DNA of 64,000 nucleotides. Origin: Yoonia sp. R2331 (GTDB taxonomy: Bacteria > Pseudomonadota > Alphaproteobacteria > Rhodobacterales > Rhodobacteraceae). Under the pieces are notes generated by a model. The model was given only the letters and a program-made list of their open reading frames with translations. It did not search any database and was not told where the DNA came from. Positions within the stretch are counted from its first letter, which is position 1. Every line of letters begins with the position of its first letter. The position numbers were made by a program, and so were the translations under genes. Below are positions 5,835-64,000 of this stretch, in pieces. Location: positions 1,612,001-1,676,000 of the forward strand of contig NZ_JBGCUN010000001.1 in assembly GCF_041103235.1 (NCBI RefSeq). Direction: 5' to 3'.

Positions 5835-7267
5835 TACAGATCCCCCAGTTTGGCAGCGTCGAATCCGGGGCCAGCGGACCAGGTGGCCTGCCCGCCGACA
5901 TCCGTCACCTGCACACCGGCAGCATTGAGGATATCACGCACCTCGTCGGCGGTTGCCCAATCCTTATCCGCGCGCGCCTGCGCACGGGTCGCCAACAGCG
6001 CATCGACACGCGCGGCAACGGCGGGCGTGACATCTGGCCCTGCCTCGCCACCCTCAAACATCGGGATGGCGGACCAGTCGTTGACCAGCCCCAACATCTC
6101 TAGCCCATGCGCGAAACCGGCCAGTGCCTGCGGCGTGCGCCCTTTGGACAGCACATGGAGCCGGGCAATCGCACCGGGGGTGTTCATGTCATTGGCCAGC
6201 ACGCCGATAAATTCGTCATCCGCCTGCCATTTGCCATCCGCCTGAAGTGCCGCGACCAGTTGCGGACCAAACCCATGGCCGTGCAGGATGCCATACCACT
6301 TGCGCAGGGTCGCTTCTGCCTCGGTGCGCTTGGCTTCGGTCCAGTCCATAGGCTTGCCGTAGTGGGTGGTCAGATAGACCATGCGAATGACTTCTCCCGG
6401 CACGCCCTGATCCAGCAGATCGCGCACGGTGAAGAAGTTGCCCAAGGATTTGGACATCTTCTTGCCTTCGACCTGCAGCATCTCGTTGTGCAGCCAGACG
6501 CGGGCAAATTCGCCATTCGGGTGCGCGCAACGGGACTGGGCAATCTCGTTTTCGTGGTGCGGAAATTGCAGGTCATTGCCGCCGCCGTGAATGTCGAAGC
6601 TTTCACCCAACAGCGCCTTGGACATTGCTGAGCATTCAATGTGCCAACCGGGTCGCCCGTAGCCCCAAGGACTGTCCCATCCCGGCACCCCATCGGGTGA
6701 AGGTTTCCACAACACAAAGTCCATCGGGTCGCGTTTATAGGGCGCCACTTCGACCCGCGCGCCTGCGATCATGTCGTCAACCGAGCGGCCCGAGAGGCTG
6801 CCATAGTCCGGGTCGCTGGCGACCGAAAACAGCACATGGCCTTCCGCCTCATAAGCATGGCCCTTGGCGATCAGATCAGCGGACATCTCGATCATCTCTT
6901 GGATGTAGTTTGTCGCGCGGGGTTCATGCGTCGGGCGCATCGCACCCAGCGCGTCCATATCCGCGTGATACCAGCCGATGGTCTCTGCCGTGATGTCACC
7001 AATCGCACGGCCCGTTTCAGCAGCGCGCGCGTTGATCTTGTCATCGACGTCGGTGAAGTTGCGCACATAAGTGACGTTCCCAGCGCCATAGACGTGGCGC
7101 ATCATCCGAAACAGCACGTCAAACAGCAGCACATTGCGCGCATTGCCCAGATGCGCGCGGTCATAGACCGTCGGCCCGCACAAATACATGCTGACTTTGC
7201 CGGGGATGACAGGTTCAAAATCCACCTTGCGGCGGGTCTTGGTGTTATGGAAACGGATCGGTGTCAT
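5834..7267 (-). CDS. cysS: Cysteinyl-tRNA synthetase
   Basis: A 477-residue class I synthetase that charges tRNA-Cys in the cytoplasm. The N-terminal zinc/substrate segment [18 protein letters not shown] contains the HIGH-equivalent HLGN. A second zinc-ligand region, WHIECSAMS, follows near residue 235, and KKMSKSLGN near residue 270 is the KMSKS loop. Length is usual for the family. It heads an overlapping minus-strand operon with cimA and four further genes. Between its start and the preceding DUF1697 gene lies a 169-base leader that holds a possible cysteine-rich peptide (see 7349-7414), so control by charged tRNA-Cys is conceivable but unproven. Confidence 0.95.
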
Positions 7268-7348
7268 AGCGCCTCACGCACGGGTTTTGCCGGCGGGCTT
7301 AGCGAAATCAGGATCAATGTGAAACGTGAAAAAGCAGCCCGCTGGAGA

Positions 7349-7414
7349 TCAGCAGGGAATAATGCAGCAAATAATGATGCAGGTCTTTTTCATGGGGCCG
7401 GAATAGCAGGCCAT
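7349..7414 (-). CDS. Possible cysteine-rich leader peptide upstream of cysS
   Basis: A 21-codon frame, ATG at 7414 and TGA at 7351-7349, reads MACYSGPMKKTCIIICCIIP plus a final C. It contains five Cys and six Ile codons and ends 81 bases before the cysS start. Around its stop, short mutually exclusive complementary segments (GCTG, CAGC, GCTG) precede a run of five T, and a GCGGGCT segment can pair with AGCCCGC further down. That layout resembles an attenuator. Against it, I see no good ribosome binding site and the stems are short. This is an inference from pattern only. Confidence 0.3.
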   Translation of the reverse strand: MACYSGPMKKTCIIICCIIPC

Positions 7415-58727: not shown

Positions 58728-59171
58728 TCACGAGCCAATTATTTTCTCAAGCTCGGCCTTTTCGGCATCGCTGAGCGCAACAGGAGGGGCGACGTCGCGT
58801 CTGCGGATCGTCGACCAACCGATGCCAAGCCCGACCAACAGCAGCACGGGCGCTGCCAACCAAAGCACCAGATTGGACCCTGCAGCCCGGGGGCGCATCA
58901 GAACAAATTCACCAAAACGTGCGGCCATATAGTCCAGAACTTCGGCGTCTGAGTCGCCCGCGACAAGCCGTTCACGCAGGACGATCCGCAACTCGCGCGC
59001 AACGGCGGCGTGAGATTCGTCGATGCTTTCGTTTTGGCAAACGGGACATCGCAACTGGGTCGAAATTTCGCGCGCCCGGGCTTCCAGCGCGGGATCGTCC
59101 AGCATCTCATCGGGTTCCACGGCCCACAATGGAGCAGCCAGAAACAGCAGGATCAGGACCAGACGCTTCAT
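58728..59171 (-). CDS. ccmH: Cytochrome c-type biogenesis protein CcmH
   Basis: A 147-residue periplasmic thiol protein, membrane-anchored. It has a signal/anchor at the start (MKRLVLILLFLAAPLWAVEPDE), the redox motif LRCPVCQNESIDES (apocytochrome reduction), and a C-terminal membrane helix (LVLWLAAPVLLLVGLGIGW). It is the short CcmH without the TPR domain of CcmI. The ATG at 59171 overlaps the ccmF stop by 4 bases, and longer frames are ccmF antisense. Confidence 0.93.
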   Translation of the reverse strand: MKRLVLILLFLAAPLWAVEPDEMLDDPALEARAREISTQLRCPVCQNESIDESHAAVARELRIVLRERLVAGDSDAEVLDYMAARFGEFVLMRPRAAGSNLVLWLAAPVLLLVGLGIGWSTIRRRDVAPPVALSDAEKAELEKIIGS

Positions 59172-61129
59172 TCTGCCGGCACCGGCTTGGCCGCTGCTGC
59201 ACCGACCCGCAATCGCCGGTCTGTCAACGACAATAGCCCGCCGAGTGACATGAGGATCGCACCGCCCCAAATCCAGTTCGCAAGTGGTTTCACGTAGACA
59301 CGCACCGTGTGTCCGCCCTGAGGTTGCGGATCACCGATGACAACGTAGATGTCGCGCAGAAAACCGTTGTGAATGCCTGCCTCTGTTGTGGGCATTTGGG
59401 CGACTGGATAGAACCGTTTTTCAGGTTGCAGCACGGCGATCTGAGCCCCGTCGCGGGCCACGGCGATGTCCGCGATGGTGGTCTGGAAGTTCGGGCCGCG
59501 GTCACGGCGCACATCCTGCAAGGTCACCTGATAGGCCCCGACGTCATAGGTCTCGCCCGGGTTTGCCACGCGAATATCCTCGACCTGCCAGGCCAGAATG
59601 CCAGCAACCCCGATGATCGTGACACCCATGCCTGCATGGGCCGTGGCCTTACCCCAGTCCGCGCGCGGCAGCCGGGTGATGCGCCGCAGCCGGTCAGCGA
59701 CACCGCCGCGCCCGCTGCGCAACCAAAGATCAAGGGCGGCCCCGCCGATCACCCAGATGCCAAGCGCCAGACCAATCGGGCCAAGGGCGGACCGCCCGCT
59801 TTGCACCGCGAAGGCCAGCCCCGCCACGGCAACGGCCAGGAACGCCAAGGCCCCCAGTGTGCCCCGCGCCTTGGTCAAACGCCCACGCTTCCACGCCAGC
59901 AGAGAGCCAAGCGGCATGACCACCGCCAGCGCCACCATGAAGGGGGTGAAAGCTGCATCAAAGAATGGCGGGCCGACTGACAGCGTGCGATCAAACAGCA
60001 GTTCGGACACCAGTGGCCAGATTGTGCCGATAAAGACCACAAGGCAGCTGACCGCCAGCAGGATATTGTTCAGCACCAGCGCGCTTTCGCGGCTGACTGT
60101 GCCAAAGACGCCTTGGGCCTGCATCGCGCTGGCCCGCAACGCAAACAGCACCAGTGAACCGCCCAAAAAGATCCCCAGGATCAACAGGATGAACACCCCG
60201 CGTTCCGGATCATTGGCAAAAGCGTGGACAGAGGTAAGCACACCAGAGCGCACGATGAACGTGCCCAGGAGCGAAAACCCAAAAGCAAGGATCGCAAGCA
60301 GGATTGTCCAGCTTTTCAGCGTCTCGCGTTTCTCGACCACAATGGCGGAGTGCAAAAGAGCAGCGGCGATCAGCCACGGCATGAAGCTGGCATTTTCCAC
60401 CGGGTCCCAGAACCAGAAACCGCCCCAGCCCAGCTCATAATATGCCCACCAAGACCCCAGTGCGATGCCGACGGTCAGGAACATCCATGCAGCCAGCGTC
60501 CAGGGCCGCACCCAGCGGCCCCATGCGGCGTCCACGCGCCCTTCGATCAGGGCGGCCACCGCAAAGCTGAACGTCATGCTCAGCCCCACATAACCGAGGT
60601 ATAGGAACGGCGGATGAAAGGCGAGGCCGGGGTCCTGCAAAAGCGGGTTCAGGTCGCGGCCATTGAGCGGCGCGAAATCAAGCCGGTGAAACGGGTTCGA
60701 GGTGAACAGAATAAAGGCATAGAAGGCGACCGAAACGGCCCCCTGCACCGCCAGCACACGGGCGCGCAACCGCTGGGGCAGATTGTCACCAAACCACGCC
60801 GCACAGGCCCCAAACAGCGCAAGGATCAGCACCCAGAGCAGCAGCGACCCTTCGTGATTCCCCCAAACGCCGCTGATCTTGTAAAGCAGCGGTTTGTCGG
60901 TGTGGGAATTGAGATAAACAAGCTCTACCGAGAAGTCCGAGACTACAAATGCCCAGGTCAGCACCGCAAAGCTGAAGCCCACAAGCACCACTTGCAGCGT
61001 GGCGGCCGGTTCGGCCACGGCCATCCAGGCGCGCCAACCCTTGTGGGCACCCACCAGCGGCAGGATCATCTGCGCTATGGCGACAGCAAAGGCCAGAATC
61101 AGGGTGAAATGTCCAAGCTCGATCAGCAT
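59168..61129 (-). CDS. ccmF: Cytochrome c heme lyase subunit CcmF
   Basis: A 653-residue membrane protein with about 13-15 helices. It has the WWD heme-handling domain (WGGFWFWDPVENASFMPWLIAAALLHSAI near residue 225) and conserved His in flanking loops. It transfers heme from CcmE to apocytochrome c with CcmH. The ATG at 61129 (MLIELGHFTLILAF) is the family start; the frame continues upstream to 61213 without homology. Its start lies 84 bases after the stop of the XhlA-like gene of the lysis cassette. Confidence 0.95.
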   Translation of the reverse strand: MLIELGHFTLILAFAVAIAQMILPLVGAHKGWRAWMAVAEPAATLQVVLVGFSFAVLTWAFVVSDFSVELVYLNSHTDKPLLYKISGVWGNHEGSLLLWVLILALFGACAAWFGDNLPQRLRARVLAVQGAVSVAFYAFILFTSNPFHRLDFAPLNGRDLNPLLQDPGLAFHPPFLYLGYVGLSMTFSFAVAALIEGRVDAAWGRWVRPWTLAAWMFLTVGIALGSWWAYYELGWGGFWFWDPVENASFMPWLIAAALLHSAIVVEKRETLKSWTILLAILAFGFSLLGTFIVRSGVLTSVHAFANDPERGVFILLILGIFLGGSLVLFALRASAMQAQGVFGTVSRESALVLNNILLAVSCLVVFIGTIWPLVSELLFDRTLSVGPPFFDAAFTPFMVALAVVMPLGSLLAWKRGRLTKARGTLGALAFLAVAVAGLAFAVQSGRSALGPIGLALGIWVIGGAALDLWLRSGRGGVADRLRRITRLPRADWGKATAHAGMGVTIIGVAGILAWQVEDIRVANPGETYDVGAYQVTLQDVRRDRGPNFQTTIADIAVARDGAQIAVLQPEKRFYPVAQMPTTEAGIHNGFLRDIYVVIGDPQPQGGHTVRVYVKPLANWIWGGAILMSLGGLLSLTDRRLRVGAAAAKPVPAE

Positions 61130-61213
61130 GGGGGCTGTATAGCCGAGGCGGGCGCGGTTGACACGCCCACCCGCGCGAATTTGACTGCGGCAAAATGGTT
61201 TAGCAGCGCCCAA

Positions 61214-61417
61214 TCAGGGCATCAGGCCGCCCTGCACGATATAGGTGATCATGCCCAGAATCAAACCGCCGATCACCAGCCGCACCAGCCATTTCAACGT
61301 ATCTTCGATGCTGCCCAAACGGCGGGCCACATTGGCCTGATGCACCGCAGTGACCGCGTTATGGGTTTCAAGAGCGGCAACGCGCGCCTCAATCGTCTTG
61401 CCCGTCTCAACGCCCAT
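61214..61417 (-). CDS. XhlA-like small lysis accessory protein
   Basis: A 67-residue protein: an N-terminal amphipathic coiled-coil-like helix (KTIEARVAALETHNAVTAVHQANVARRLGSIEDTLKWLVR) and one C-terminal membrane segment (LVIGGLILGMITYIV). The SIEDTLKWLVR junction before the membrane helix is like the hemolysin XhlA family of phage lysis cassettes, in which XhlA works with a holin. It overlaps the holin stop by 11 bases, so it is translated with the holin and muramidase. The identification rests on architecture and the short motif. Confidence 0.65.
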   Translation of the reverse strand: MGVETGKTIEARVAALETHNAVTAVHQANVARRLGSIEDTLKWLVRLVIGGLILGMITYIVQGGLMP

Positions 61418-61916
61418 GGCTGGCCCACCATTCGGCGAGTGCGGCGTTTTCGTCTTTTGGATCAGGAGTACCAGTGGGCGCGGTTACAGCTTGGGTCAAG
61501 GCCACCGATTGCACGACAGAGCGTTGAAAATCCTGCCCTTTCGCCTGATGCCGCGCCCCGAAGTAAAAGCTGACGATCGCACCCATCAGCCACCAGAGCG
61601 GTTCGGGGATCAGTGCCACGCCAATCATGCGATCCGCAAACCAGACCGGATGCCACATGGCAGACACGAAAAGCGCAATGGTCCCCAGCGCCAGTGCGGG
61701 ACGCGGCAAGCGGTTGATCGCATCCACCAGCCGGTCAAACAGCCCCTTGCGCGGCTGCACGAACTCGGTGGCAAATTGCGCCAGAGCGGCTGATTTGCCA
61801 TCTGCGGCACGCTGTGCGGCGTTTTCGGCGTTCTCGCGAAACGCCTCGACCGTCTGGCTGACCGCATTGCGGCCATCGCCAAACAGCATCGACATTACCC
61901 CCGTGATCAACCCCAT
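61407..61916 (-). CDS. Holin of the 3TM (GTA-holin) family
   Basis: A 169-residue protein with an N-terminal amphipathic region (MGLITGVMSMLFGDGRNAVSQTVEAFRENAE) and two to three membrane segments (LALGTIALFVSAMWHPVWFAD, LWWLMGAIVSFYFGARHQAK), then a charged tail. WHPVWFAD and FYFGARHQ are typical of the gene-transfer-agent holin of Rhodobacterales (3TM holin family). It opens the inner membrane for the muramidase. It overlaps the muramidase by 10 bases and the XhlA-like gene by 11. Confidence 0.82.
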   Translation of the reverse strand: MGLITGVMSMLFGDGRNAVSQTVEAFRENAENAAQRAADGKSAALAQFATEFVQPRKGLFDRLVDAINRLPRPALALGTIALFVSAMWHPVWFADRMIGVALIPEPLWWLMGAIVSFYFGARHQAKGQDFQRSVVQSVALTQAVTAPTGTPDPKDENAALAEWWASHGR

Positions 61917-62518
61917 GCCGCGATCCTTTGCTGATGTTGCGCCGGTGTCAGGTGAAACCGGGCTGAAATGAACTCTTCCGCGCGCGTGATCCAGCCCCCT
62001 TTTCCACCATCGCGGCGGCGCGCGTATTTGCGGCTGGCCGCGCGGCGGTCGGCAAGCGCGTAGTAATAGTTGCGCCGCGCGATGCCGTATGCATCAACAA
62101 AGTGGTCAGGTGCAGCCGCAAAAGCCTGTGCTGTGGCCGCCGCGGTTTGCGGGCCAATCACGCCATCCACGCTGACGTCGATGCGCATGGAATTCAGCAG
62201 CCGTTGCAGGATTTTGACAGCATTGCTGCCCGCGTTGACGTACATATCAAAGACGCTGGCCTGCACCGGTTCCGGCAGCAGGTTGATACGTGGTCCCTCA
62301 AAGTAGTGTTTGACGAAGATATCCTCGGCCTGATCGCGGCTAAGCCTGCGCACATCCGCCGTGGTCACGCGCCCATCCCCGTCCAGGTCGAGGCCAAGAC
62401 GGCGCATCGTGTGAATCGTGACGCCAAAGTTTGTGGCCCCGCCCGGATCGGACGGGTCGTTCACATAACCGCCTTCGCGGGCCACGATCTCTGACGCGAT
62501 TTGTCTGACTGTTTGCAT
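61907..62518 (-). CDS. Holin-associated N-acetylmuramidase (GH108 endolysin)
   Basis: A 203-residue endolysin. The GH108 catalytic start is REGGYVNDPSDPGGATNFGVT with the catalytic Glu at residue 15. A central region contains an EF-hand-like loop (Asp44, Asp46, Asp48, Gly49, Val51, Asp55). A C-terminal peptidoglycan-binding domain (SMRIDVSVDGVIGPQTAAATAQA) follows, and then a basic tail. GAGGGG lies 7 bases before the ATG. It is the first gene of a muramidase-holin-XhlA cassette lying between ccmE and ccmF. The homologous pair releases gene transfer agent particles in Rhodobacter capsulatus, encoded away from the particle genes. Confidence 0.88.
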   Translation of the reverse strand: MQTVRQIASEIVAREGGYVNDPSDPGGATNFGVTIHTMRRLGLDLDGDGRVTTADVRRLSRDQAEDIFVKHYFEGPRINLLPEPVQASVFDMYVNAGSNAVKILQRLLNSMRIDVSVDGVIGPQTAAATAQAFAAAPDHFVDAYGIARRNYYYALADRRAASRKYARRRDGGKGGWITRAEEFISARFHLTPAQHQQRIAAWG

Positions 62519-62559
62519 AATGATCCCCTCACGTTGGGAATCAATCTGCGCTCGCTTGG

Positions 62560-63018
62560 TTAATTCGTGACTGCGGCACCGTCCGGTGCGACATAGGTGC
62601 CTTGTTCCTTCAGCGCGTCGATGACTTCTTTTGGCATGTAGGTTTCATCATGTTTTGCAAGGATTTCAACCGCTTCAAAGGTGCCGTTCACGTAGCGTCC
62701 CTGCCCGACCATGCCTTCGCCTTCGTTAAAAAGGTCGGGCAGAATGCCATCGTAAGTCACAGGGATCGTAGCCCCGCCATCAGTCACCGCGAAAGAAACC
62801 TTGGTCCCTTCACCGCGCACAATCGACCCATCCGCCACCAGTCCACCGATGCGGAAAAGCTCTGTCGCGACGGGTGGGTTTTCGGCCACTTCGCTTGGTG
62901 AACGGAAGAATTGAAAGGAATCGTCGGGCAGCAGTGCAAGGATGACCAGCACCACCGCCAGACAGACGCCTGACAGCGCCAAGATCTGAATTCGCCGCTT
63001 TTTCTTGAGCCCCTTCAT
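62560..63018 (-). CDS. ccmE: Cytochrome c maturation protein CcmE (heme chaperone)
   Basis: A 152-residue periplasmic heme chaperone with an N-terminal anchor ([22 protein letters not shown]), a beta-barrel OB domain ([21 protein letters not shown]) and the covalent heme His123 in [13 protein letters not shown], followed by Tyr. Heme passes from here to CcmF. Its ATG overlaps the argC stop by 4 bases, and it ends 41 bases before the muramidase start. Confidence 0.95.
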
Positions 63019-64000
63019 GGGAACATCGCCGGTTGCATCAGGGCCGTCGTTTCATCAAGCCCCAACATCAGGTTGGCATTCTGCAACGCCTGCCCACTGG
63101 ACCCTTTGCATAGGTTATCCAGCGTGGACACCACCAGCGTGCGCCCCGAAATCCGGTCGCCTGTCACCCCGATATGGCAAAAGTTCGACCCCGCGACATG
63201 CCCTGTGCCGGGGGTCTGGCCAAAGGGCAGCACCACTATGAAGGGCTCGTTGGCGTATTGCGCCGTCAGCGCCGCGTGCACCGCATGCGCATCACCTTTC
63301 AAATAGCAAGACGCGAGGATGCCCCGGCTCATCGGGACCAGATGCGGCGTGAACTGTATGCGCACATCGCGCCCGGCCAAGGCGCTGAATTCCTGATCAA
63401 ACTCGCCCAAATGCCGGTGCTTGCCCCCTTCAGCATAGCCCGAAGCGTCAGAGGCGCGCTCGGTGAACAGCATCTGTTCCTTGAGTGCCCGTCCTGCGCC
63501 GGACGCCCCGCATTTGAGATCACAGACGATGTCGTCAAGGTCGATCAACCCGCCGGTCATCAAGGGCCGCAACGCAAATTGCACCGTCGCGGCATTGCAG
63601 CCGGTGCCCGCCACCAGCCGCGCCGTGCGGATGTCGTCGCGATAGAACTCGGTCAGGCCGTAGACGGCGGTCTTTTGCAGATCAGCCGCCACATGCGGCT
63701 TGCCGTACCAGTGTTCATAGGCATCTGGGTTCCGCAGCCGGAAATCAGCGCCCAGATCCACAACTTTCACATGCGCCGGCAAATCACGGACTAGCGCCTG
63801 GCTTAGCCCGTGTGGCAAGGCGGCAAACACCAAATCAATGGTGGAAAAGTCGATGTCATCGACCTTTACCAGCCCTGGCAGGTCCAGATGGCGCAGATGC
63901 GGGAACACATCTGCCATGTGCTGACCTGCTTTCCGCTCGGCCGAGAGGGCCGCGATATGCAGGTCAGGATGGATGGCGATCAGCCGCACCAGTTCAGCAC
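63015..64000 (-). CDS. argC: N-acetyl-gamma-glutamyl-phosphate reductase (5' end outside window)
   Basis: The visible ~328 residues contain the catalytic Cys in [16 protein letters not shown] (near residue 130), the NADP-domain [13 protein letters not shown] and the late His region [12 protein letters not shown]. The enzyme makes N-acetylglutamate semialdehyde in arginine synthesis. The frame stays open to the window end (reading [13 protein letters not shown]-like sequence), so about 15-20 N-terminal residues with the GxxGxxG nucleotide motif lie beyond it. The gene shares its stop with the ccmE start (ATGA). Confidence 0.93.

Follow-up and report, generated by a model that had tools for sequence, protein, structure and literature searches.

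A probable gene transfer agent release cassette within the cytochrome c maturation cluster of Yoonia sp. R2331, with a CtrA-type half-site and a leader hairpin predicted to silence read-through RNA

The three-gene lysis cassette of Yoonia sp. R2331 lies in the argC-ccmE-ccmF cluster and is probably the release module of an RcGTA-like gene transfer agent (GTA), transcribed from a CtrA-type promoter of its own and silenced by a leader hairpin in RNA that reads through from upstream. We are evenly divided on a wider reading, in which this promoter-in-hairpin lock is what keeps a GTA suicide operon in the ccm cluster, its arms being re-made in each lineage, and in which the operon outlives the GTA in some genera and may serve other lysis there. 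Gene content, conserved location, the CtrA half-site, the −10-like element and the locus-specific complementarity of the hairpin arms were computed from a window of 64,000 nucleotides, i.e. the whole stretch of DNA analysed, and from related loci. The cassette genes and their nearest neighbours, in window positions, were as follows.

61907..62518, minus strand: muramidase (endolysin), GH108 N-acetylmuramidase with PG_binding_3, 203 aa, NF040573 equivalog
61407..61916, minus strand: holin, GTA_holin_3TM (PF11351), 169 aa
61214..61417, minus strand: small membrane protein of XhlA-like type, probable partner of the holin, 67 aa, lineage-restricted accessory
62560..63018, minus strand: ccmE, upstream neighbour, from which read-through would presumably come
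59168..61129, minus strand: ccmF, downstream neighbour, ATG at 61129

Upstream of ccmE, argC reaches position 63015 and extends past the end of the window, and ccmH is located downstream, beyond ccmF; argC, ccmE, the cassette, ccmF and ccmH all share one orientation. The codirectional ccmE is 41 bases upstream of the muramidase, and the cassette genes overlap by 10 bases (muramidase and holin) and 11 bases (holin and XhlA-like gene). A Pfam scan, which covered the named proteins of the window, returned Glyco_hydro_108 (2.6e-26) and PG_binding_3 (2e-20) for the muramidase, GTA_holin_3TM (PF11351, 2.6e-25) for the holin and, narrowly over the cut-off (35.8 bits against 34.7), XhlA (PF10779, 8.9e-9) for the third protein. 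The muramidase matched the NCBIfam model NF040573, "holin-associated N-acetylmuramidase", with 363.7 bits against a cut-off of 240, and the holin and the XhlA-like protein were without an NCBIfam match at 0.001. The remaining ORFs of at least 60 aa between ccmE and ccmF were antisense or other-frame overlaps of the cassette. Coordinates and Pfam matches together confirm the original prediction of a muramidase, a 3TM holin and an XhlA-like protein placed between ccmE and ccmF with overlaps of 10–11 bases, and the recurrence of the gene order across Rhodobacteraceae indicates that this order is more than chance. The closest locus among the best 80 of 551 was that of the uncultured Rhodobacteraceae isolate 516-3Z (L034), which encodes an identical muramidase and has a printed leader identical to that of the window.

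The ccm location is general in Rhodobacteraceae. In the first set of loci, the best 80 of 551 confirmed loci by muramidase similarity, ccmE upstream and/or ccmF downstream was present in 76 of the 80 (both neighbours 54, ccmE only 11, ccmF only 11, neither 4). The second set, partly overlapping with the first, comprised 130 loci (30 + 100), each from a different genome among the 329 with a holin, approximately one per genus, drawn from a list ordered best score first with some listed genomes skipped. A holin adjoined the muramidase in all 130 loci of this set, and 95 of the 100 loci with 3 kb flanks had ccmE and/or ccmF (both neighbours 65, ccmE only 21, ccmF only 9, neither 5). The distance between ccmE and the muramidase had a median of 69 bases in 170 leaders. 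The synteny of ccmE and ccmF thereby settles, for Rhodobacteraceae, the generality of the location, on which the original prediction took no position. In a class-level sample, PF11351 was found in 43 of 190 genomes, three of these being Rhodobacteraceae; among 20 loci of this sample (ca. 3.3 kb each), all three Rhodobacteraceae loci had ccm neighbours, and none were detected in the other 17, where divergent ccm genes could escape the queries or the short flanks. A literature search returned no account of a GTA endolysin or holin in ccm, subscription papers, where such an account may be in print, being largely outside its reach; for ccmE together with holin it returned only Shewanella and Haemophilus papers, as judged by title. 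In loci without an upstream ccmE, the gene facing the muramidase is often small and divergent, with a PHPEGGHYRQTW-type motif, and we take it to be cupin-like (L060, L071, L075, L105, L266, L279, L286).

Homologues of the window-type XhlA gene were identified in 13 of 130 loci, 30 of which had short flanks. Holin and ccmF were spaced by less than 150 bases in 88 of the 156 loci having both genes, which leaves little room for a third gene, and the loci with wider spacing include XhlA-like genes as well as an unrelated small membrane protein. XhlA and XhlB cooperate in PBSX-type systems, and the small XhlA-like protein adjoining the holin in the window resembles that arrangement, but many relatives of the window cassette are without a third gene or have another small membrane protein in its place. 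The third gene may be an accessory that modulates the holin. The unrelated protein, 59–64 aa long (AEHGPWVLLVFYLLYRD type), overlaps the holin end and replaces the XhlA-like gene at L039 (ca. 7180–7365), and proteins of the same type were seen at L073, L081, L104, L064 and others.

The leader between ccmE and the muramidase contains the following elements.

62558..62563, minus strand: TTAACC, CtrA-type half-site at −45, overlapping the ccmE stop codon
62543..62548, minus strand: CAGATT, −10-like element at conserved spacing from TTAACC
62535..62536, minus strand: predicted native transcript start, 7 bases after the −10-like element
62522..62542, minus strand: leader hairpin GATTCCC-AACGTGA-GGGGATC, its 3′ arm containing the G-rich half of the Shine-Dalgarno sequence, 3 bases before the ATG
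62525..62530, minus strand: Shine-Dalgarno sequence GAGGGG, 7–12 bases before the ATG

The search for CtrA sites, proposed together with the original prediction, thus led to a TTAACC half-site ahead of the muramidase. At −70 to −40, TTAAC was present in 136 of 170 ccmE-linked leaders and in 20 of the 33 muramidase leaders without ccmE, against 1 of 60 among phage muramidase leaders and 1 of 465 among controls (0/149 ccmF, 1/113 ech, 0/203 holin). The stop codon of ccmE and the half-site share bases in 41 of 132 leaders, as they do in the window. An A-N3-T pattern starts 16 bases from the first T of TTAAC in 96 of 132 leaders and at 17 bases in a further 22, every other offset from 6 to 39 accounting for at most 12 of the 132. 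We read this pattern at fixed spacing as a putative −10 element, the motif of which departs from the classical sigma-70 hexamer. The conservation of TTAAC suggests that it is a CtrA half-site promoter element of the cassette and a candidate for CtrA binding. Scanning of the window for sigma-70-like promoters returned none, and its four terminator-like sites, a number near chance (shuffle mean 2.6), were all within coding regions. Read-through from the cassette into ccmF, originally considered likely, is on these two results still possible.

The hairpin was assessed by folding the span from −45 to +3 of the muramidase start, with z-scores calculated against dinucleotide shuffles. Its median energy in 170 ccmE-linked leaders was −18.6 kcal/mol with a median z of −2.57, compared to a median z of −1.07 in 33 leaders without ccmE, −1.68 in 60 distinct phage leaders, and −0.07 to −0.12 at control starts (ccmF, ech, holin), which are leaders of a different kind, the holin start being inside the muramidase gene. 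In the set of about one leader per genus, the median z was −2.19 with ccmE (111 leaders) versus −1.43 without it (18 leaders; p = 0.0017). The hairpin weakens with the distance of ccmE (rho 0.24, p = 0.002): z was below −2 in 89 of the 133 loci with ccmE less than 100 bases away (one of them with an impossible negative gap), and in 4 of 15 loci with ccmE at least 150 bases away, where the median z was −1.09. When the upstream gene was divergent the hairpin was weak (median z −0.96, 21 loci), and ten loci with a codirectional upstream gene other than ccmE had a median z of −1.60 (p = 0.057 versus divergent), orientation being judged from ORF composition.

The letters of the hairpin arms vary between loci. 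When the 5′ part was swapped among loci, mostly those of other genera, the median energy in 132 leaders shifted from −19.0 (native) to −12.4 kcal/mol (chimeras; p = 3.5e-22), and in 19 leaders without ccmE the values were −13.5 and −13.4 (p = 0.046); the loss of stability in the chimeras indicates that the pairing is not merely a match of two fixed motifs. In an alignment of 12 leaders, six of eight pairs keep pairing with changes on both sides. Fifteen leaders of the window's own group had no consensus fold, and gap-free comparison of related leaders (22 ordered pairs) gave 2 compensatory versus 92 broken pair cells. These two results rule out base-by-base conservation of the hairpin and imply that its arms turn over fast. 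The region 60900–63200 had no Rfam match at E-values up to 1. The possibility that the hairpin is the transcription terminator of ccmE was rejected, since the start codon follows it and there is no T run. Phage muramidase leaders (L114–L193) tend to have start-site hairpins as well, yet are without the CtrA half-site (1/60).

Predicted accessibility of the Shine-Dalgarno sequence increased from a median of 0.16 in read-through RNA to 0.47 in RNA beginning at the predicted start, with a rise in 113 of 119 leaders, and the change falls within 10 bases of that start. In 73 of the 114 leaders having at least three paired Shine-Dalgarno bases, all pairing partners are located before the predicted start. 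The first base of the 5′ arm precedes the predicted start in 116 of 116 leaders and the whole 5′ arm does so in 25 of them; in the middle half of these leaders the start is positioned 0–3 bases before the last 5′-arm base, a result partly forced by geometry. With the predicted start this close to where the 5′ arm ends, the hairpin would be present mainly in read-through RNA, and according to the folding model it probably stops muramidase production from through-running transcripts. In the window, transcription is predicted to begin at the final base of the 5′ arm or one base later, and the Shine-Dalgarno sequence, half of which is in the stem, had an unpaired probability of 0.33 in read-through RNA versus 0.47 from the predicted start. 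At L034, for which another set of six bases was used, the values were 0.50 and 0.42, i.e. in the opposite direction. The predicted lock effect in the window itself is small or absent, and the family evidence for the lock is stronger than that from the window leader.

With an own CtrA-type promoter and a hairpin over the Shine-Dalgarno sequence family-wide, the original suggestion that lysis expression is tied to transcription of the respiratory cluster has become less supported. The lock predicted for the cassette leader follows the same logic as that of phage T4 gene e (lysozyme), and also of soc and I-TevI, as described in the accessible portions of the literature, where the Shine-Dalgarno sequence of gene e is sequestered in read-through transcripts and the transcripts from the late promoter are without the 5′ part (PMC3014915; PMC2988022). 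Unlike in T4, the promoter of the cassette is CtrA-type and cellular, its start is a predicted one, and a housekeeping cluster of the host would be the origin of the read-through.

Release of GTAs, named as the probable function in the original prediction, is supported by the holin family, by a GTA cluster elsewhere in the genome, by the CtrA half-site and by co-occurrence with GTA_TIM. The structural cluster sought on the strength of that prediction is present in the same genome, on one contig with the cassette and about 477 kb from it. This RcGTA-like cluster contains the single GTA_TIM match of the genome, and a scan of 10 ORFs there identified terminase, portal, protease, capsid, tail tube, GTA-gp10, DUF2460, baseplate hub, GTA_TIM protein and Rcc01698-like protein; a serine acetyltransferase gene follows the cluster. 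Among 394 Rhodobacteraceae genomes (393 genera), the holin family (PF11351) was found in 329 and GTA_TIM in 346, with 308 genomes having both, 21 holin only, 38 GTA_TIM only and 27 neither. The association had an odds ratio of 10.4 (p = 7.6e-12, kinship ignored), GTA_TIM being an imperfect GTA marker because many genomes have several matches to it. The cassette is almost certainly a lysis module freeing gene-transfer particles.

Like the RcGTA lysis genes rcc00555/rcc00556 (Dshi_1756/1757 in D. shibae), as far as the available accounts of these go, the cassette pairs an endolysin with a holin at a site unlinked to the structural genes of the GTA, and by description CtrA half-sites in the promoter there correspond to the half-site here; rcc00555 is presumably a member of NF040573. 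In R. capsulatus, the endolysin and lysis genes are described, in the accessible text of two papers, as late-expressed and dependent on CtrA and GafA, with CtrA half-sites in the lysis-gene promoter (PMC6363796; PMC9638019), and nothing in that text refers to a position in ccm or to a hairpin in the leader. A search of the 394 genomes did not recover the R. capsulatus locus; a published primer had one match there, with 2 mismatches, in one genome.

Absence of the GTA was judged by capsid, portal and TIM matches. Of the 21 holin-positive, TIM-negative genomes, 11 with a completeness of at least 95% were also without a match to the GTA capsid or portal of the window genome. Eight of these 11 (G376, G141, G203, G123, G076, G240, G249, G180) had a muramidase of 198–203 aa, TTAAC and both ccm neighbours, with hairpins that ranged from −11.0 to −21.9 kcal/mol and, at a median of about −15, were less stable than the overall median. 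As 8 of the 21 TIM-negative genomes keep an intact cassette and CtrA half-site, GTA release may not be its sole role; either the GTA was lost recently and decay of the cassette lags behind, or the cassette has another use. Of the others, G380 had a partial holin with no adjoining muramidase found, only part of the muramidase of G095 was visible, close to the end of a contig, and G030 was without TTAAC and ccmE. The lysis cassette was retained in G036 (L320), G114 (L319) and G210 (L301), in which GTA capsid or portal genes had a stop or a partial match. In G390, the muramidase was only 8 codons long from the chosen ATG.

The mechanism that we infer, as regards the transcript start, the effect on translation, the action of GafA and actual read-through, would be the following. 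The CtrA half-site and the −10-like element would direct transcription from a point close to where the 5′ arm ends, with GafA expected to assist by analogy with R. capsulatus, and the native mRNA, its Shine-Dalgarno sequence free, would be translated into the endolysin, the holin and its partner in the small number of cells that produce GTA. Read-through RNA from argC-ccmE would carry the full hairpin with the Shine-Dalgarno sequence hidden and would give little endolysin, so that a lethal cassette could be tolerated in a housekeeping cluster. If true, this would explain how a bacterial family can retain a lethal gene set in a cluster in active use, and the control of GTAs, which is described, in the literature accessible to us, as transcriptional and post-translational, would gain a checkpoint at translation. 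It would also offer a signature for finding domesticated lysis modules (TTAAC, a 10-base spacer and CANNYT, followed by a start-site hairpin) and mark the genera where the lysis module persists without detectable GTA markers.

A GTA release module could also have the hairpin as a general translational brake, thermosensor-like or related to mRNA stability, with the native start upstream of it. The native start is indeed a predicted one and the −10-like element is atypical, hairpins without a CtrA site occur in phage muramidase leaders, and the predicted switch of the window leader is small or absent; but hairpin strength tracks the presence, direction and nearness of an upstream ccmE, and the predicted promoter overlaps the 5′ arm, and we consider a general brake unlikely. 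Were the inverted repeat a DNA operator, e.g. for GafA, with RNA pairing incidental, its letters should be conserved, whereas the arms vary in letters and keep their complementarity, and at divergent loci the repeat is weak although 16 of 21 have the half-site at −75 to −40. Such an operator is therefore very improbable, even with the binding of GafA to the R. capsulatus lysis promoter that is reported in the accessible part of one account (PMC6363796). That the ccm position couples lysis to respiratory-cluster expression, with ccm transcripts as the source of lysis-gene expression, would agree with the short gap to ccmE and with the confinement of terminator-like sites in the window to coding regions, but it is scarcely credible when the Shine-Dalgarno sequence is predicted to be hidden in such transcripts family-wide and the cassette has a conserved CtrA-type promoter of its own.

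The cassette could finally be a prophage remnant, or serve lysis independently of GTAs, with its ccm position incidental. Of 80 viral loci encoding a related muramidase, 76 also had a holin. A tree of 135 muramidases placed the ccm copies in many groups, several of which match genera, with phage copies interspersed; the ccm label changed 12 times on this tree, at least 4 changes being forced by well-supported branches. Retention of the cassette in some genomes without GTA markers points the same way. Yet ccmE, ccmF and argC were found in 0 of the 80 viral loci, the location, the CtrA half-site and the open frames are recurrent across Rhodobacteraceae, and the holin family co-occurs with GTA_TIM, which makes a remnant or GTA-independent cassette quite improbable. 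The muramidases would have been exchanged with phages while the place in ccm was kept. Several viral contigs of 73–82 kb had two related muramidase loci each (L138 + L162, L147 + L157 and similar pairs).
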